NCBI RefSeq assembly: GCF_002289565.1
Contig: NZ_NTFY01000015.1
Coordinates: forward strand, 62,001 to 126,000
Source of the DNA: Rhodopirellula sp. SM50
GTDB taxonomy: Bacteria > Planctomycetota > Planctomycetia > Pirellulales > Pirellulaceae
Direction: 5' to 3'
Length of the DNA stretch: 64,000 nt
Made by a program: the position numbers and the translations under genes. The notes under the pieces were generated by a model that did no database searches, had not been told where the DNA came from, and was given only the letters and a program-made list of their open reading frames with translations. This document shows positions 3,262 through 59,184 of the stretch, piece by piece (the stretch's first letter is position 1; every line of letters begins with the position of its first letter).

Positions 3262-3424
3262 TTTTTGACCTGCGACCGGACGGCTCGCGGGCTATCGATC
3301 GAGTGAGCCGCGACGCGTAAGCGACCGGGCATTCTCGCGCTGCCCGGGGCCGTACGGCCAGCGGCTCACCATTGCCTCGACAAATCCCAATAAAACGACA
3401 GCCCGCTCGCGCCGTTCCGCTAAC
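3221..3424. repeat. Nested palindrome between divergent operons
   Basis: The third 41-bp unit (3221-3261) is matched by an inverted partner at about 3400-3424 (CCCGCTCGCGCCGTTCCGCT). The pair encloses a second palindrome at 3303-3369 that starts GTGAGCCGCGACGCG and ends GGCCAGCGGCTCAC. The same inner palindrome occurs at 10560-10626 and 63501-63567. A palindrome inside a palindrome is seen directly; function unknown. Confidence 0.8.
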
Positions 3425-6178: not shown

Positions 6179-7959
6179 GTGCCGCAGACATGACTGTCGA
6201 ACATCTGCTGGTGATCGACGACAACGAAGCGATCCACGACGACTTCAGGAAAATCTTTGCGACGTCGTCTGCCCACGACGACTTGATGGCGTTGGACGCA
6301 GAGTTGTTCGGCGAGGAATCGGAGCCCCAGGCCGCCTCACCAAGCTATGCGTTGAGCTTTGCCAGCCAAGGCCGCCAGGGATGCCAGATCGTCCAAGAGG
6401 CGAAACAACGGGGCGTCCATTTTGGCACCGCCTTCGTCGACATGCGAATGCCGCCGGGATGGGATGGCGTTCAAACCATCCAGCGACTCTGGGAAATCGA
6501 CCCCGATCTGCAAGTCGTGATCTGCACCGCTTTTTCAGATCACAGTTGGAGCGAAATCGCCCGACGCCTCGGTCGCACCGACAAATTGTTGGTCTTGAAA
6601 AAACCCTTCGATGAAATCGAGGCGGTTCAACTGGCGACATCACTTTGCGAAAAACGTCGACTGCTGGATCGGCATCAACGGGCTTTGAGTGAGTTGACCA
6701 AGACGGTCGCATCACAACAGTCAAAACTCGAGTCGGCCCACCAGAACGCCGAAGTGCTGATCGACTCGATCTCCAGCATCCTGGTTTGCCTGGACCGAGA
6801 CCATCGCGTCACGCGTTGGAACCCGCATGCCGAAAACACATTCGACATCACGGCCGACCACGCGATCGGACGCACGCTGGCAGAACTGCCCATCGCCTGG
6901 GCCGACGCCGCCAAGCTGGAAAGTCTGTTGCACGCCGATTCATCGCAGAACCCTCAACACGACGAGATCCAATTCGTTGACCGCTGTGGTGGAAAACGCA
7001 CGCTCGATATTCGCATTTCTCCGCTCAGTGATGCCGCATCGGCCGCCATGCTGGTCGTGGCAACCGATGTCACGCGACAACGATTCATCCAGGCCCAATT
7101 GGACCAGTCACGACGATTGGAGTCGGTCGGGCAACTTGCCGCCGGCGTCGCACACGAAATCAATACGCCGATGCAGTACATCGGCGACAATGTCCGCTAC
7201 GTCGCCAAAACCATCGACCGACTGTCCCAATTACTTGATTGCCTGCCGGCCTTTGTCGATGAATCGGTCTCCGACGCGGAATTGATCGGACTCCGCAGGT
7301 CACTCGACGGATTCGACAACGCCCACAAAGTCCGCACGGCAATTGAACAGATGCCCGACGCCCTGGTCGATTCGATCGATGGTGTCGAAGCGGTTTCCAA
7401 GATCGTCGCGGCCATGAAAGAGCTATCGCACCCGGGGACCGGCAAGCGAAGCCAACTTTGTATCAACCACGTGTTGCAGTCGACCGTCGCGGTCGCCAGG
7501 AATGAATGGAAGTACGTAGCTGAAATCCAGACCGATCTCGACGACCAGCTGCTGCCGATCGACGGCTTGCCGAGCGAATTGAACCAGGCGTTTCTGAACA
7601 TCATCATCAACGCATCACACGCGATCGGCGAGCGCGCCGAACGCCACGAACTGGAAAAAGGCGTGATCGCGATCGGCACCCGCGATCTCGGCGACGCCGT
7701 CCAGGTCACGATCTCGGACAACGGCGGAGGCATCCCGGCCGCGATCCGCAAGCGAGTCTTTGAACCGTTCTTCACGACCAAAGACGTCGGCAAGGGAACC
7801 GGCCAAGGCCTGGCGATCGCGCATTCGGTGATCGTCCAAAAACATCACGGCAAACTTTGGTTCGACGTCGACGACGAGGTCGGTACGACGTTCACGATCC
7901 AGATCCCTCGCTGCCCACAGCCGGCCGCGGTGGTCGAATCGACCGGAGCGATGCGATGA
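6175..7959 (+). CDS. Receiver-PAS-histidine kinase hybrid
   Basis: 594 residues, no membrane segment. The receiver domain is N-terminal (about 8-155): acidic pair D15/D16, phosphoacceptor D89 in [13 protein letters not shown]142/K143 in LKKPFD, and an insert of about 35 residues after helix 1. A coiled coil (165-190) leads to PAS (190-305). The kinase core has H327 in [20 protein letters not shown]479 in the N-box, D515 in SDNGGGI, and GKGTGQGLA. An N-terminal receiver suggests it is phosphorylated by the preceding kinase and passes phosphate on to the downstream receivers. Its start overlaps the upstream stop (ATGA at 6175) and its stop overlaps the next start. Confidence 0.92.
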
Positions 7960-9167: not shown

Positions 9168-10384
9168 GCAATCAAAAGATCCTGTTCGTTGACGACGATG
9201 AAAAGCTGCTCGGCGGTATCATGCGCCAACAGGGCGACGATTTTGATCTGACCACCGCGCTCGGTGGCGAAGAAGCGCTTCAATTGATCGAACGTGACGG
9301 CCCCTTCGCCGTGGTCGTCTCCGACATGCGTATGCCGGCGATGAACGGCATCGAATTACTCAAACGCATCCGCGAACGGTCACCCGATACCGTTCGTATC
9401 ATGTTCACCGGATTCGCCGAACTGGACTCGACCATCGAAGCGATCAACGAAGGGCACATCTTTCGTTTTCTCGCCAAGCCCTGCAGCGAGCGAGACTTGG
9501 CCACGGCGCTCAAAGCCGGACTCCGCCAACACGCCCTGATCGAGGCCGAACGCGAACTGGTCGAAGGCACGCTGCACGGAAGCGTCAAGGTTCTCAGTGA
9601 AGTGCTGGCGTTGGTCAGCCCACTGGCGTTCGGCCAATCCACGCGTGTTCGCGCGATCATCGACGGGATCTTGAAACGGGTGCCGATCGAAGACCAATGG
9701 CAATTGGAAATCGCCGCGATGCTGTCGTCGCTCGGCTGCGTCACCGTCCCGACCGATGTGCTGGAAGCGATCTTTGACGGCGCAACCGTCTCGGCCGACG
9801 AAGAGAAACAGTTTGCCAAACATCCCAAACTGGCTGCCGACCTGATCAAGACGATTCCGCGGATGGAACACGTTTCCAAAATCATCCGTCTGCAAAACGT
9901 CGATCACGGCGTGCCCTCGGTCGATGGCGTCCCGGTCCCGTTGGAAAGCCGGGTCTTGAAACTGGCGATCGACTTTGACCTGAAAGAACGCTTCTGCGAA
10001 AGCCCGCTCCACGCACTCAACGAACTCAGAGAAAACCGACGTGCCTACGAGCCGAAATTCTTCGCGGCGTTGGAGGACTACGTCAAACGCGAACGAAATT
10101 TCAAACATGTCAAACTGAGCGTCCATGAAGTCGTCCAGGGCATGGTGCTGGCCGAAGACATTCGCAACCAGACCGGGACCTTGCTGATGAGCAAAGGCCA
10201 TCGCTTGTCCGGCTCGGCGATCCGTCTGTTGGAAAACTACTACAAGAAAAAAATCCTCAGCGGACCGCTCAAGGTGATCGTGCGGAGCGAGCCGGACGAG
10301 GTCGAAAACGCCCCCCCCACGACCGCCGGACAGACGCCCGAAATCCCTCTGCCGCACGTGGACGTCACGTTCGCAGACGGCTGA
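9164..10384 (+). CDS. Response regulator with degenerate HD-GYP-type domain
   Basis: 406 residues. Canonical receiver (1-125): D10/D11/D12, phosphoacceptor D54 (VVSDMRMPAMNG), T82, K105. A helical linker leads to a domain (about 140-300) aligned with HD-GYP phosphodiesterases, but where the HD should stand the protein reads IAAMLSSLGCV, and the GYP loop is NVDHGVPSVDGVPVP. The metal ligands are missing, so c-di-GMP hydrolysis is unlikely; a binding or scaffold role is more plausible. C-terminal part (320-375) is a small beta domain that often follows HD-GYP modules. Last gene of the redB operon; its ATG overlaps the upstream stop. Confidence 0.85.
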   Translation: MSNQKILFVDDDEKLLGGIMRQQGDDFDLTTALGGEEALQLIERDGPFAVVVSDMRMPAMNGIELLKRIRERSPDTVRIMFTGFAELDSTIEAINEGHIFRFLAKPCSERDLATALKAGLRQHALIEAERELVEGTLHGSVKVLSEVLALVSPLAFGQSTRVRAIIDGILKRVPIEDQWQLEIAAMLSSLGCVTVPTDVLEAIFDGATVSADEEKQFAKHPKLAADLIKTIPRMEHVSKIIRLQNVDHGVPSVDGVPVPLESRVLKLAIDFDLKERFCESPLHALNELRENRRAYEPKFFAALEDYVKRERNFKHVKLSVHEVVQGMVLAEDIRNQTGTLLMSKGHRLSGSAIRLLENYYKKKILSGPLKVIVRSEPDEVENAPPTTAGQTPEIPLPHVDVTFADG

Positions 10385-10395
10385 TCTCAATCCAT

Positions 10396-10738
10396 CATCA
10401 GCCGCTTGGCGCCAGCCTGCGGGGTAACGCTGTGAAGCATTTCCCCATGTGTTTCTTGAGGTTTTAGCGGCAGGGCGCGAGCCCTCCGGTTCTTCATCTC
10501 TGCCACAACACCGGAGGGCTCGCGGGCTGTCGATTTAGTCGGGATCTGCTGGGGGAATGGTGAGCCGCCGGCCGTAAGGCCTCGGGCAATGTCGGATTGC
10601 CCGGCCGCTCACGCGTCACGGCTCACAAAATCGACAGCCCGCTCGCGCCCTACCGCTAAAAAATGCTTCACAGCGTTACCTGCCGGGGCCGCGCATCGCC
10701 CCGATCACCGCCCGGACGCTGGCGTGAACCGGCTGATC
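10396..10738. repeat. Palindrome family ATCAGCCG split by a nested element
   Basis: Left half (10396-10422, ATCAGCCGCTTGGCGCCAGC) and right half (about 10711-10738, CGGACGCTGGCGTGAACCGG followed by CTGAT) are the two arms of the palindrome seen intact at 52550-52620 and in tandem at 43383-43882. Here the arms are separated by the 258-bp element at 10423-10680. No gene is seen in 10385-10796. Confidence 0.75.
10423..10680. repeat. Element with 18-bp terminal inverted repeats, long copy
   Basis: Outer arms GGTAACGCTGTGAAGCAT (10423-10440) and ATGCTTCACAGCGTTACC (10663-10680) are perfect inverted repeats. Inside are the AGCGGCAGGGCGCGAGCCC arm pair (about 10466 and 10636-10658) and, innermost, the GTGAGCCG palindrome (10560-10626). 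The same outer arms bound shorter copies at 15293-15428 and 54811-54945. No open frame: resembles a REPIN or MITE rather than a coding transposon. Confidence 0.85.
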
Positions 10739-10796
10739 TCTATCGAAAAGCCGACGAATTTGGGGAGCGTCAAACGCCAGAGCGAGCCGGTTGCGG

Positions 10797-13058
10797 ATGC
10801 GTTACAATGAACGCCCCGCCTCCGCTTCACCCCGCCCCCGAAGACTTGGTGCAACCACCGTGCCTTGCTCCAGCCTCAACCGTGCATTCGTCTTGACGAG
10901 CGCCGTCGTGACCTTGGCCTGTTTCAACAACGGCATCAGTCCGGCGGCAGAGAAAGACGCGGAATCGATCGAGTTTTTTGAACGCAAGATCCGTCCGGTT
11001 CTGGTCGCCCGCTGCTACGAATGCCACTCCTCCGATGCCGACTTGGTCCAAGGCGGACTCCGTGTCGATGATCCCCAAGCGATGCTCCGCGGCGGCGATT
11101 CGGGGTCGGCGATTTCGCCCGGCCAACCCGCCGCCAGCATGTTGCTTGCCGCGTTGCGTTACGACGGGATGGAAATGCCGCCGGACGAGCCGTTGCCGGA
11201 AAACGTGATCCGCGATTTTGAACAATGGATCGAGCGGGGCGCCGTGATGCCGGAGGCTTCCGCGACAGACGTCCCGCACACCGAAGCGGCCGACGAACCG
11301 GAAATCAACTGGGAACGGGCCAGACAGTTTTGGGCCTTCCAGCCGCCCGTCCTGCATCACCCCAGTGAGATCGCCGGTGATGAAGGGGCCGGATCGTCCT
11401 GGGCGGCAAACAAACTGGATCGGTTCGTCTTCGCCAGACTTTCGCAGCATGGGCTCTCGCCCAATCCGCCGGCATCCAAACGGACCTGGTTGCGGCGTGT
11501 CAGTTTTGATCTGACCGGGTTGCCGCCGACGATCGAAGAGGTGGAAGCATTCCTGGCCGACAATCGTCCCCAAGCCAAACTCCGTGTCGTCGATCGACTG
11601 TTGGCTTCACCCCAACACGGTGAACGATGGGCTCGCATCTGGCTGGACGTCGCTCGTTATGCCGAAGACCAGGCGCACATCGTTGGCAACAATGATTCGC
11701 TGACCTATCCGAACGCCTACCTGTACCGCGATTGGGTTATCCACGCGTTGGCCAACGACATGCCGTATAACGATTTCGTCAGGGATCAATTGGCGGCCGA
11801 TCTGCTTCATCCCGGTGCCCCGGAACGCCATGTGGCACTCGGTTTCCTCGGACTCGGCCCCAAGTACTACCGTCGCAACGACCCGGAGGTGATGGCCGAC
11901 GAATGGGAAGATCGCATCGACACCGTATCGCGTGGCTTGCTGGGGCTGACCGTCGCCTGTGCACGCTGCCACGACCACAAATACGATCCCGTCCCGACGG
12001 CGGATTACTACGCCTTGGCCGGCGTGTTTGCCAGCACCGAAATGTTCAATCGGCCGCTCGATGAGTCCGTCGAAACCAACGGCCCCCAAGCGAAAAAACC
12101 GCAAGACGCCGTGCACATCGTGCGTGAAGGCAAACCACAAGATTTAAAGGTGATGATCCGCGGGGACGCCAAACGTCTCGGCGATACCGTCCCACGCGGT
12201 TTCTTGACCGTGCTCACAACGCCCCAGACCGAGCCTGCCGCGGCCGGCGCATTCAGCAACGGCAGCGGCCGGGCGGCGCTGGCCGACGCGATCGCTGATT
12301 CGTCCAATCCGCTGACCGCCCGCGTGATCGTCAATCGGGTTTGGCACCAATTGATGGGCGCGCCGATCGTCGCCACACCGAGCAACTTCGGTTCGCTCGG
12401 CGGACGCCCTTCCCACCCGTTGCTGCTGGATGACCTGGCGGTTCGATTCATGAACGCCGGATGGTCGCTGAAGTGGTTGCAGCGGGAAATCGTTCTGTCG
12501 GCCGCCTACGGACAAAGCAGCGAAATCGATCCGGTTCAGTCCGAGACCGATCCGGACAATCAATGGCGTTGGCGGATGCCGCGACGACGGTTGAGCCTGG
12601 AAGCCTATCGCGACGCCATCCTGTCCGCCTCGGGTGGACTCGACACCAAAATCGGCGGCCGATCGATCGATCCCCAACAGACCTCGACGGGACGCCGAAC
12701 CGTTTACAGCGAAGTCAGCCGATTAGACTTGAGCCCCATGCTGGCGCGGTTCGATTTCCCGGACCCTAATGCACACAGCCCCGGCCGCCACGAAACCACC
12801 ACTCCCTTGCAGAAACTGTTTCTGCTCAACAGCCCGTTCCTGATCCACCACGCGTCGACGTTGGCCGAACGAATCCGAACCGCCCGCCCGACCGATCCCC
12901 AGCGGATCGCGTTTGCCTGGCAATTGCTCTACGGAAGAATGCCCACTGACGAAGAACGCGAGCTTGCCGAACGCTATGTCGCCGACGGCAGCCGAGAACG
13001 CTGGAACGGCCTCGCACAGACGCTGTTGATCAGCAACGAAATGTTCATGTTGGATTGA
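10797..13058 (+). CDS. Planctomycete cytochrome c / DUF1549 / DUF1553 protein
   Basis: About 753 residues from the ATG at 10797; a GTG at 10860 nearer the hydrophobic signal (FVLTSAVVTLACF) is an alternative. After export comes a planctomycete-type cytochrome c domain with one haem motif, RCYECH, and a distal Met in DGMEMPPDEPL. Then DUF1549 (about 190-400; SFDLTGLPPTIEEVEAFL, WLDVARYAED, CARCHDHKYDPV, a second CxxCH) and DUF1553 (about 485-750; NPLTARVIVNRVW, FNAGWSLKWLQRE-like segment, LLNSPFL). Such proteins are very numerous in planctomycetes and occur next to DUF1501 genes, as here. Function unproven; a role in degrading complex sugars is often proposed. Typical length. Confidence 0.93.
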   Translation: MRYNERPASASPRPRRLGATTVPCSSLNRAFVLTSAVVTLACFNNGISPAAEKDAESIEFFERKIRPVLVARCYECHSSDADLVQGGLRVDDPQAMLRGGDSGSAISPGQPAASMLLAALRYDGMEMPPDEPLPENVIRDFEQWIERGAVMPEASATDVPHTEAADEPEINWERARQFWAFQPPVLHHPSEIAGDEGAGSSWAANKLDRFVFARLSQHGLSPNPPASKRTWLRRVSFDLTGLPPTIEEVEAFLADNRPQAKLRVVDRLLASPQHGERWARIWLDVARYAEDQAHIVGNNDSLTYPNAYLYRDWVIHALANDMPYNDFVRDQLAADLLHPGAPERHVALGFLGLGPKYYRRNDPEVMADEWEDRIDTVSRGLLGLTVACARCHDHKYDPVPTADYYALAGVFASTEMFNRPLDESVETNGPQAKKPQDAVHIVREGKPQDLKVMIRGDAKRLGDTVPRGFLTVLTTPQTEPAAAGAFSNGSGRAALADAIADSSNPLTARVIVNRVWHQLMGAPIVATPSNFGSLGGRPSHPLLLDDLAVRFMNAGWSLKWLQREIVLSAAYGQSSEIDPVQSETDPDNQWRWRMPRRRLSLEAYRDAILSASGGLDTKIGGRSIDPQQTSTGRRTVYSEVSRLDLSPMLARFDFPDPNAHSPGRHETTTPLQKLFLLNSPFLIHHASTLAERIRTARPTDPQRIAFAWQLLYGRMPTDEERELAERYVADGSRERWNGLAQTLLISNEMFMLD

Positions 13059-14488: not shown

Positions 14489-14699
14489 GTGGGATAGGCT
14501 TCCAGCCTGTCATCCCAGCCTCGACAGTGGGATAGGCTTCCAGCCTGTCATTCCAGCCTCGACAGTGGGATAGGCTTCCAGCCTGTCATTCCAGCCTCGA
14601 CAGTGGGATAGGCTTCCAGCCTGTCATTGCAGCCTCGACAGTGGGATAGGCTTCCAGCCTGTCATTGCAGCCTCGACAGGCTGGAAGCCTATCCCACTT
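14489..14699. repeat. 38-bp tandem repeat (five copies) closed by an inverted copy
   Basis: Units start at 14489, 14527, 14565, 14603 and 14641, each beginning GTGGGATAGGCTTCCAGCC and ending CTCGACA, with one or two base differences. An inverted copy (CAGGCTGGAAGCCTATCCCA, ending at 14699) follows the fifth unit, so the transcript of either strand can fold. It lies between the convergent DUF1501 and QueD genes and may end transcription both ways. The same core is a clean hairpin at 59939-59995 and 32195-32260. Confidence 0.9.
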
Positions 14700-43260: not shown

Positions 43261-43382
43261 GAGCGTGTCTCTTGTGGATGAAGGACTGGCGAGTGAAGTG
43301 GACCTCGGCAGTTTAGCGGGTTTGGCAAGCTTGGTGCGAGGGCGAAACTGATGGTGGTCAAGCTCGCCGCGCTATTAATTCA

Positions 43383-43882
43383 ATCAGCCGTTTGGCGCGA
43401 GCCTACGGGCCCGCTGCGGTTGGAGGGGTCGAGGAGGCCCGTACGCTGGCGCGAAACGGCTAATCTCACGTGCGATCGAATCGAATTGACAGACCATGAC
43501 GCTACCGGCACGCTCGACGCGTTGTAAATCGCAAGCTTACCGGCTGCTGATTCGATCAGCCGTTTGGCGCCAGCCTACGGGCCCGCTGCGGTTGGACGGG
43601 TCGAGGAGGCCCGTACGCTGGCGCGAAACGGCTAATCTCACGTGCGATCGAATCGAATTGACAGACCATGACGCTACCGGCACGCTCGACGCGTTGTAAA
43701 TCGCAAGCTTACCGGCTGCTGATTCGATCAGCCGTTTGGCGCCAGCCTACGGGCCCGCTGCGGTTGGACGGGTCGAGGAGGCCCGTACGCTGGCGCGAAA
43801 CGGCTAATCTCACGTGCGATCGAATCGAATTGACAGACCATGACGCTACCGGCACGCTCGACGCGTTGTAAATCGCAAGCTG
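43383..43882. repeat. 172-bp tandem repeat, three copies
   Basis: Units start at 43383, 43555 and 43727; the last is cut at about 156 bp. Copies 2 and 3 are virtually identical, copy 1 differs at a few positions. Each unit has an ATCAGCCGTTTGGCGC arm and, 60-70 bp later, its inverted partner TGGCGCGAAACGGCT, then about 85 bp of unique DNA ending in CGCAAGC. The last unit runs into the GGAAGCTTACGCC motif. In the gap between the divergent-looking ends of oppA (start) and selO (stop); no gene in 43261-43911. Confidence 0.93.
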
Positions 43883-43911
43883 GAAGCTTACGCCACTTTG
43901 GGCGGAATCCA

Positions 43912-49433: not shown

Positions 49434-49582
49434 CTGAAAAGCGCTGCGGACGAGAGTACGCCAAAACGCCCCCGCGGCGCAAGATCAATCTGGCCAGTCA
49501 GATGAACGCCGGACGGCGGGGGCGGAGAAACGGGTCAAAAGATTGGGTGGTCAAAAAATGAAAATCCGAGCCGGCGCCATCC

Positions 49583-49688
49583 TTTTGACCAACCCATCTT
49601 TTGACCAACCCATCTTTTGACCAATCAATCTTTTGACCAATCAATCTTTTGACCAATCAATCTTTTGACCAATCAATCTTTTGACCAC
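49583..49688. repeat. 16-bp tandem repeat, seven copies
   Basis: TTTTGACC begins at 49583, 49599, 49615, 49631, 49647, 49663 and 49679; the four central units are identical (TTTTGACCAATCAATC), the outer two have CCAACCCATC. Unusually AT-rich for this genome. Related TCAAAAGAT and GTCAAAAAATG pieces at about 49535-49562 face the other way. Between the AsmA-like and DUF1080 genes; nothing else in 49434-49741. Confidence 0.93.
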
Positions 49689-49741
49689 TTCCTTTCCGGC
49701 CACGACGGTTGCATCAGACGGCCGGCCCGAATCATCTGCCG

Positions 49742-52510: not shown

Positions 52511-52653
52511 AGGCCAATACCGCTAAGTTAAGCGTGGTTTCCTCAACTCGGTGCCCGTAGGCTCGCGCCAAACGGCTGATAAACGATTGATATCAGCCGG
52601 TTCGCGCCAGCGTCCGGGCCTCCCCGTCGAGCTTAACTTAGCGGTATTGGCCT
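52511..52653. repeat. 143-bp element with 23-bp perfect terminal inverted repeats
   Basis: Left arm 52511-52533 (AGGCCAATACCGCTAAG at its outer end) and right arm 52631-52653 (CTTAGCGGTATTGGCC at its outer end) are perfect inverted repeats of 23 bp. Between them is the ATCAGCCG-family palindrome (arms about 52552-52580 and 52596-52623). No coding frame. Remainder of 52490-52860 holds nothing recognisable. Confidence 0.88.
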
Positions 52654-58188: not shown

Positions 58189-58644
58189 CTACAGTCCGGG
58201 GATCCAGACCAAGCGATACTGATGCCGCAACGGCCTGACAGCGCGCTGAGGCTTCTCAGGACGATAGACTTCAAAACGCTGGTCGGCCACGATTTGCCCC
58301 TCCAACGTTAACGTCATCCGCCACGTGCCGAGCTTGTCCTCGATGGGTTCCCAAATGGTGTCGCCCATGTAGAAATCCCAGTCGTTGGTCTTCACATAGA
58401 CCACGTCTTCAAAGGGTGGACGCCGCTTGCCCTTGGCGTCACGGATGCCGGGGTGATCGATACAGTAATGAAGTTGCAGATTCTTGCCACCGACCACGTT
58501 GATCACCAAACCGAATTCCACGTCGACTTCGGCAGGGACGCGTGTGGTGGATTCCAGAAACGCGGGCAATTCCTTCGATCCGGAATCCCATTTCGAATAC
58601 AGTCCATACGTTCGGACGCTGACTTCGGGTCTTTGTTTGGCCAT
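58189..58644 (-). CDS. DUF3859-like protein
   Basis: 151 residues, no signal peptide or membrane helix. Predominantly beta: VSVRTYGLYSKWDSGSKELP, VPAEVDVEFGLVINVVGGKN, then DHPGIRDAKGKRRPPFEDVV and DKLGTWRMTLTLEGQIVADQ. The Asp-Glu/Gly framework fits small cytoplasmic DUF3859 proteins. Function unknown. Convergent with the ThuA gene. Confidence 0.6.
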   Translation of the reverse strand: MAKQRPEVSVRTYGLYSKWDSGSKELPAFLESTTRVPAEVDVEFGLVINVVGGKNLQLHYCIDHPGIRDAKGKRRPPFEDVVYVKTNDWDFYMGDTIWEPIEDKLGTWRMTLTLEGQIVADQRFEVYRPEKPQRAVRPLRHQYRLVWIPGL

Positions 58645-58710
58645 TGAACCATCTTAGCCGATCACGGTTCACGCTCAACAAGCAGGAATCGTTACATTGG
58701 GGCGGTAGGG

Positions 58711-59164
58711 TGTTCGCGGAACGGCGCGAGCCGTCCGGTTGCGTTTCAAAAACGCCTTGAAAGACCGGAGGGCTTGCGCCCTGCCGCTAACAATCAACTG
58801 AGGGTGTTAGCGGAACGGCGCGAGCCGTCCGGTGGCGTTTCAAAAACGCCGTGAAAGACCGGAGGGCTTGCGCCCTGCCGCTACCAATCAACTGAGGGTG
58901 TTAGCGGAACGGCGCGAGACGTCCGGTTGCGTTTCAAAAACAGTTTGAAAGACCGGAGGGCTTGCGCCCTGCCGCTACCAATCAACTGAGGGTGTTAGCG
59001 GAATGGCGCGAGTCGTCCGGTTGCGTTTCAAAAACGCCTTGAAAGACCGGAGGGCTCGCGCCCTGCCGCTACCAATCAACTGAGGGTGTTAGCGGAACGG
59101 CGCGAGCCGTCCGGTGGCGTTTCAAAAACACTTTGAAAGTCCGGAGGGCTCGCGCCCTGCCGCG
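58711..59164. repeat. 94-bp tandem repeat, five copies
   Basis: Units begin at 58711, 58805, 58899, 58993 and 59087 (period exactly 94). Each contains an AGCGGAACGGCGCGAGCCGT arm, GCGTTTCAAAAAC, and the opposite arm CCGGAGGGCTTGCGCCCTGC, then CAATCAACTGAGGG. Differences between copies are concentrated in the arms and in the CGCCTTG/CAGTTTG/CACTTTG loop. Same core as the 3139 and TIR-element inner repeats. Between DUF3859-like and DUF2071. Confidence 0.94.
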
Positions 59165-59184
59165 AACTCACAACCGAAGAGCGG

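Follow-up and report, generated by a model that had tools for sequence, protein, structure and literature searches.

REP-like palindromes are usually regarded as being spread by RAYTs. REPINs, as Bertels and Rainey reportedly described them in 2011, are inverted pairs of short palindromes that form the repeated unit. REP palindromes can also be targets, and one study describes them as hit at fixed points by IS of the IS3, IS110, IS4, IS256 and IS5 families (Tobes and Pareja 2006, PMC1525189). Among bacterial MITEs, the background of another study lists RUP, NEMIS, ERIC, Nezha and others, and the same paper places the GTAG-15 dimers of A. variabilis and the CGTC-1 dimers of H. neapolitanus within longer palindromes that were not found without REPs (Di Nocera 2013, PMC3733652). 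The site described here combines these themes. We hold with considerable confidence that it is a two-step nest of short non-autonomous transposons, in which a shell, A, sits in a ATCAGCCG palindrome and a second element, B, sits in A.

The nest lies in the window, the whole stretch of 64,000 nucleotides that was analysed (contig C54, positions 62001-126000), in a 9.8-Mb draft genome of 146 contigs (the own genome, G000) whose owner looks like a planctomycete; 14 genomes made up the genus set compared. It is intergenic and flanked by two genes on the same strand, the downstream one having its best relative among the matches listed, from which very near records may be missing, in a Blastopirellula MAG, at 53% identity. 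From the outermost layer inwards, the features are as follows.

10397-10423, plus strand: left arm of the ATCAGCCG palindrome, the oldest host (level 0); sequence and repeat finder (family D9).
10711-10737, minus strand: right arm of the ATCAGCCG palindrome; sequence and exact coordinates.
10416-10424, unstranded: left copy of the 9-bp target duplication of shell A, CCTGCGGGG; flank comparison.
10679-10687, unstranded: right copy of the 9-bp target duplication of shell A, CCTGCCGGG, an 8/9 match; flank comparison.
10425-10678, unstranded: shell A, MITE-like, 254 bp, with 18-bp TIRs YAACGCTGTGAAGCATTT; repeat finder and copy comparison.
10425-10442, plus strand: left TIR of shell A; repeat finder and exact coordinates.
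10661-10678, minus strand: right TIR of shell A; repeat finder and exact coordinates.
10464-10490, plus strand: left arm of shell A's cargo, an AGCGG palindrome dimer; repeat finder and copy comparison.
10510-10659, minus strand: right arm of the AGCGG dimer, broken by B into the pieces 10510-10522 and 10646-10659; copy comparison.
10519-10522, unstranded: left copy of the 4-bp duplication of element B, CTCG (GCTCGC on the 6-bp reading); flank comparison.
10642-10645, unstranded: right copy of the 4-bp duplication of element B, CTCG; flank comparison.
10523-10641, unstranded: element B, MITE-like, 119 bp, with ends CGGGCTGTCGATTT...AAATCGACAGCCCG; copy comparison.
10560-10626, unstranded: GTGAGCCG palindrome dimer within element B; exact coordinates.

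Within 10396-10740, perfect inverted repeats reach 20 nt, against a maximum of 13 in 1000 dinucleotide shuffles, and the inverted-repeat structure of the site is not chance. An earlier note on this DNA had reported ATCAGCCG arms that agree within one base with those obtained here from sequence, repeat finder and exact coordinates (10397-10423 and 10711-10737), split by a 258-bp element with 18-bp inverted repeats. The corresponding interval was found at 10423-10680; its perfect arms are 20 nt, and the element proper comes to 254 bp once the target duplication is removed. The AGCGG and GTGAGCCG palindromes that it placed inside the insert are present as claimed, but it saw one insertion and missed the level below, that of B in the right AGCGG arm. 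Since this arm is itself split by the GTGAGCCG-bearing element, there were two nested insertions, not one. Subtracting B and one CTCG copy brings the focal shell to about 131 bp, near the typical length of shell A. Its 18-bp terminal arms are perfect, and no open reading frame of at least 100 aa occurs within 10425-10678, B included, as in a MITE. In a first step, shell A with its AGCGG dimer interior inserted in the ATCAGCCG palindrome, duplicating 9 bp, and in a second, element B entered the right AGCGG arm, duplicating a short target.

Copies elsewhere identify shell A as a transposon. Its TIR has 188 matches in the own genome at no more than one mismatch, and the TIR pattern has 250 at no more than two, compared with 15 for a reversed control pattern. 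Non-redundant two-ended copies, a set biased toward perfect-ended ones, number 55, with 127-134 bp between the scored ends in 48 of them and 252 bp in the longest. Across these 55 copies, flank agreement has a sharp maximum (z 14.3) at a length of 9 bp, counted from one base beyond AACGC. The duplication matched at 8-9 of 9 positions in 26 copies, where shuffled pairs would give 1.7, with the target consensus CCCGNCGGG; at the focal site there is one mismatch in 9. The other 29 copies matched at 7/9 or worse, and exchange among copies or decay is therefore frequent. Shells with only 30-60 bases between their ends (no mismatches) gave no match in the own genome.

A shell A copy on contig C125 (L253, near 7208-7340, duplication CTTTTTGGG) provides an element-free counterpart, as the sister species G007 has a single copy of the target there and G004 also lacks the element; the neighbouring shell A copy is common to G007, where its duplication is 9/9. 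The C125 copy (L253:7205-7345) sits within an open reading frame, to which shell and duplication add 141 bp, or 47 codons, in frame and stop-free; the G007 and G004 homologs have no such insert. That the elements have moved, the claim at the heart of the earlier note, therefore holds: A and B both have TIRs and target duplications, A with its 188 TIR matches, 26/55 duplications and element-free C125 site, and B is absent from the corresponding arm in G007.

Element B was analysed in the same way. Of 82 copies read, seven with damaged ends were excluded, leaving 75 for the target-duplication statistics. Flank agreement was highest for a length of 4 bp (0.88, where shuffling gave 0.62; z 11.7). 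A length of 6 bp did nearly as well (0.86, z 11.2), and for the 17 copies outside AGCGG agreement was 0.88 at 4 bp and 0.75 at 6 bp. A 6-bp duplication had been our first reading; the offset test slightly favours 4 bp, the C and G then being part of the element, and the duplication is best read as 4 bp, CTCG at the focal site. B was found within AGCGG arms in 58/75 copies, a share to be read as an upper estimate because part of the set was drawn from a query containing AGCGG flanks; 34 of these lie in one orientation and 22 in the other, with 2 unassigned. Targets outside AGCGG include CTAG in G013. Nests of B in A comprised 4 of the 55 two-ended shells of the own genome, namely the focal one and, by inspection, L002, L008 and L015, to which G007 adds L267 and L293, so that a check for other nested copies had a positive outcome in both genomes. 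At 3288-3405 of the window, a further B occupies an AGCGG arm without shell A; the structure is similar in G007 and missing in G004.

Palindromes as landing sites were assessed with 67 of the 82 B copies (at least 3/4 duplicated bases) and the 26 A copies with 8-9/9. At B sites in AGCGG, arm complementarity reached z 6.7-7.3 at offsets of 2 and fell to z -6.4 at offset 0; around 16 B sites outside AGCGG there was none (z -0.6 to 0.6), and general targeting of hairpin loops by B was discarded on this contrast. For shell A, palindrome targeting beyond the duplication was weak or absent, z lying between -0.3 and 2.4 at the five offsets, and the self-complementarity of its 9-bp targets, site by site, was 0.59 against 0.60 for shuffled halves. 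The landing-site idea thus holds for B in AGCGG arms, with little complementarity around A targets and none at the 16 other B targets.

The best candidate for moving B is an IS1182-family element, the likely parent of B judging from its ends and duplication length. Such an IS occurs in the sister species G004 (L360), where the transposase scores above the NF033551 cut-off and the one IS copy read has 19-bp ends CGGCCTGTTGATTTTCTGC and a 4-bp duplication, TAAC. On the 4-bp reading the duplication of B has this length, and some B copies of G013 begin with GGCCTGTTGATTT, a 13-base match; in the own genome, the B end CGGGCTGTCGATTT matches 12 of 14 end bases, and by inspection the sequences directly interior to the ends appear unrelated. 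Two IS4-family elements of G013 (L371 and L372) were also considered as the autonomous parent. They were dropped because alignment places an IS, with ends AATGCCACC, within B at an insertion point in GGCCGTAAGGCC, the B ends lying outside it. By inspection, this IS resembles the ends of a third element type, C, around AGCGG. L371 and L372 are 99.5% identical over 1541 bases and both sit in B-type ends; the outer ends are both of a short type in one and both of a long type in the other, as expected of reciprocal inversion products. In G007, a B-like element has its GGCCTTACGGCC palindrome interrupted by a different IS4-family element (L367, ends CTGTCAGTTATACGTAA). For shell A, a transposase flanked by a pair of A ends was found at none of 50 PF01609 loci, drawn from 175 matches across 5 genomes, and at none of all 9 PF00872 loci there, and five A loci of G013 held no autonomous parent.

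The focal site was compared with its orthologs by eye. In G007 the order is left ATCAGCCG arm, left arm of another element, AGCGG dimer uninterrupted by B, right end of A, CCTGCGGGG and right ATCAGCCG arm; this ortholog is thus chimeric, two types of element meeting in its AGCGG core. The flank outside the right end of A reads CCTGCGGGG in G007 and CCTGCCGGG in the own genome; because the G007 ortholog carries this end with CCTGCGGGG outside it, the right end of A is older than the split from G007. G009 has a similar left junction and then reaches a contig end. In G004 another AGCGG-bearing element follows CCTGCGGG and the right arm is absent, and in G005 and G006 there is no such palindrome. 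The arrangement is therefore not fixed at orthologous loci, since sister species carry other elements there. The comparison of empty with filled sites came out in part: the C125 copy is element-free in G007 and G004, but at the focal site none of G004, G005, G006, G007 and G009 (the last followed only to its contig end) proved fully empty, which counts against the two-step reading.

Exchange between palindromes has also acted at the focal site. A reading in which homologous exchange or gene conversion among palindrome copies built the whole mosaic, with transposition unneeded here, would account for the chimeric ortholog in G007 and G009, for the break in synteny with G007 and G004 at one shell A copy, and for two pairs of shells: in L018 and L022 each bears the target sequence of the other, displaced by one base, and L222 has a target in common with L223. 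Such pairs suggest recombination between copies or misjoins in the draft assembly, in which several contigs terminate at shell A copies. Exchange alone is nevertheless already insufficient. Fixed-length target duplications lie at precise element ends, a precise element-free site exists for the C125 copy, and B occurs in both orientations within AGCGG arms. We judge this reading improbable, and two successive transpositions are preferred.

The earlier note implied a TnpA-REP (RAYT) route, in which a Y1 (HUH) tyrosine transposase moved the palindromes. AGCGG and ATCAGCCG are short imperfect palindromes, arranged as inverted pairs and repeated in the genome, as in REPs and REPINs, and the own genome contains 8 Y1-transposase matches. 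One of these genes (L031, contig C99) is flanked on both sides by a palindrome dimer of its own, AGGCCCGGAGGGCCGACACAGT, like a REPtron, and a weak match (L038, 23.4 bits) has three GTGG-type repeats nearby. An AGCGG-like cargo reads GTAGCGG in G027, and at one Y1 locus in another genus (L419 in G125) a weak ATCAGCCG-like match lies alongside. Against this, AGCGG, ATCAGCCG, GTGAGCCG and the ends of A and B were found within 1.5 kb of none of the 8 own Y1 loci under the mismatch limits applied, so that AGCGG and ATCAGCCG lack a linked RAYT gene there, and the tested cargo palindromes were found at none of 30 further Y1 loci, drawn from 100 matches in 10 genomes. The inserted units moreover possess TIRs and target duplications, features that the RAYT (Y1) mechanism is not known to produce. 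The fixed lengths of the duplications indicate DDE-type transposition of A and B rather than RAYT activity, which we consider very improbable here. Least credible of all, to the point of near dismissal, is the reading that selection conserves the site as one structured RNA or terminator, since for all the strong predicted fold of 10385-10790 (-212.8 kcal/mol, z -9.1) and the location between two same-strand genes, good folding is expected of any nested inverted repeat, no Rfam match reached gathering scores, no terminator-like site occurs in 10200-11000, and none of the five nearest relatives with the gene (G009 partly seen) has the same arrangement, species differences that refute it as an origin and are compatible with a secondary role in transcripts.

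The nested transposons stand in a repeat landscape that differs between species. Syntenic stretches are about 86-96% identical, and repeats differ in kind or number at ten displayed alignment breaks, sites selected because the alignment broke there. At 43371-43886 of the window, three tandem 172-bp units each contain a ATCAGCCG dimer; the ortholog has GTGG-type repeats in G007 and a shell A with a damaged left end in G004. The undivided ATCAGCCG copies to which the earlier note had pointed elsewhere in the window both exist, but the dimer at 52560-52612, while undivided, is enclosed by other inverted repeats (52514-52532 and 52632-52650). The ends of this enclosing shell, CCAATACCGCTAAGTTAAG with flanks CCTTTAGG, resemble those of an IS in G013 (L373), and its place (52514-52650) is taken in G007 by another element, which is similar to an IS found in G004 (L364). 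The GTGG-type REP array at 14489-14697 has five direct units and one inverted, with one pair in the G007 ortholog and none in G004. Other arrays in the window are a tandem of 94-bp units with five AGCGG dimers at 58613-59176 and one of 16-nt units at 49566-49709, CTTTTGACCAACCCAT and CTTTTGACCAATCAAT; in G004, AGCGG-dimer units form a tandem array between shell A ends (L236).

Within the genus set, the shell A TIR at no more than one mismatch is abundant in G000 (188 matches), G004 (154), G007 (147) and G009 (118), less so in G013 (14), and gives 0-1 matches in each of the other nine genomes. Perfect matches extend to 29 of the 241 genomes of the family, spread over 13 of its 68 genera when the own genus is counted, and the control gave none. 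At least one AGCGG arm is present in all 72 two-ended copies from G000, G004, G007 and G009, none of these shells being without one, and the three two-ended copies of G013 have a TAGCACGAAGCGC dimer in its place. For other genera, 60 loci were fetched and yielded 35 elements with two ends no more than 700 bp apart, single-ended ones being left uncounted; the 9-bp duplication was 8-9/9 in 15 of the 35.

The interiors of these shells vary. By inspection, the cargo in G027 is a relative of AGCGG with a GTAG tag where the own genome has TTAG, that in G029 is a relative of the G013 dimer, and G104, G118 and L413 hold other palindromes; a shell in G121 (L452) encloses a GTAG dimer and has a 9/9 duplication. 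Cargo is not unique to each genome: that of G027 is similar to the cargo of the home clade, and similarities likewise link G029 with G013 and G104 with G118. Several of the nine A elements of G156 and G158 hold GTAG-type units, and a duplication of at least 8 was found in 0/9. By a cruder measure over all 35 shells, the longest perfect inverted repeat of the interior is at least 10 nt in 18 and 8-9 nt, the chance level, in 8. In the other 9, which comprise every shell read from G083 (3), G125 (3) and G126 (2) and one from G029, there is none of at least 8 nt, which speaks against the cargo always being a palindrome dimer. In two shells of G156 (L472 and L478), a GTAG unit is split, by inspection, by elements with B-like ends CGGCTTGTTGATTT, flanked in L478 by TCAA; the three-layer design therefore seems to have arisen with other sequences as well. 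The 9-bp matches of these two shells are poor (5 and 1).

A mechanism consistent with these comparisons would have A and B moved in trans by DDE-type transposases. Palindromes delivered by one element may serve as landing sites for the next, so that dolls would accumulate, and A-type shells may act as vehicles with exchangeable cargo, a reading that rests on the same ends enclosing different interiors in different genomes. Cargo exchange in a fixed shell is the most interesting and the least proved idea of this mechanism; varied cargo could also result if a single widespread but unseen IS had repeatedly given rise to MITEs. Extended to the whole family, the proposal is tentative, and we find it plausible without yet favouring it. 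One DDE-type shell, with the same 18-bp ends and 9-bp duplication, would be an exchangeable vehicle that lineages load with dimers of their own, some of them canonical and GTAG-tagged. REP-like repeats would then be amplified as MITE cargo with no linked RAYT, and cargo hairpins would receive further shells, the dolls being built independently in different genera. A shell with constant ends and a changing palindromic interior is a testable second route for REP-like spread besides RAYT, and nested insertions with intact duplications provide a relative clock for intergenic turnover.

The nest resembles REPINs in its inverted palindrome pairs and differs in that no cognate RAYT stood beside its palindromes at the loci examined, and in that the dimer is housed in DDE-type shells. 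With the bacterial MITEs, as characterised in PMC3733652, shell A shares short length, non-coding sequence, TIRs, high copy number and a location that is often intergenic. It departs from them in keeping its ends constant while the interior varies between genomes, and in being the repeated landing site of a second MITE. Mobile DNA landing in REP palindromes is likewise a feature of the IS described in PMC1525189, where the families named for REP targeting do not include IS1182, B's likely relative; in the nest the inserts are non-autonomous and the host palindrome itself lies within another transposon. That REPs are IS targets, and that REP dimers can lie in longer palindromes which were not found empty, is already known. 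A common shell with changing cargo across genera looks new, having no counterpart in the open-licence literature searched. In section 7 of Di Nocera 2013 (PMC3733652) the longer palindrome figures as a target; shell A, by contrast, is a transposon that has a target duplication of its own and is present in several genera with differing cargo.
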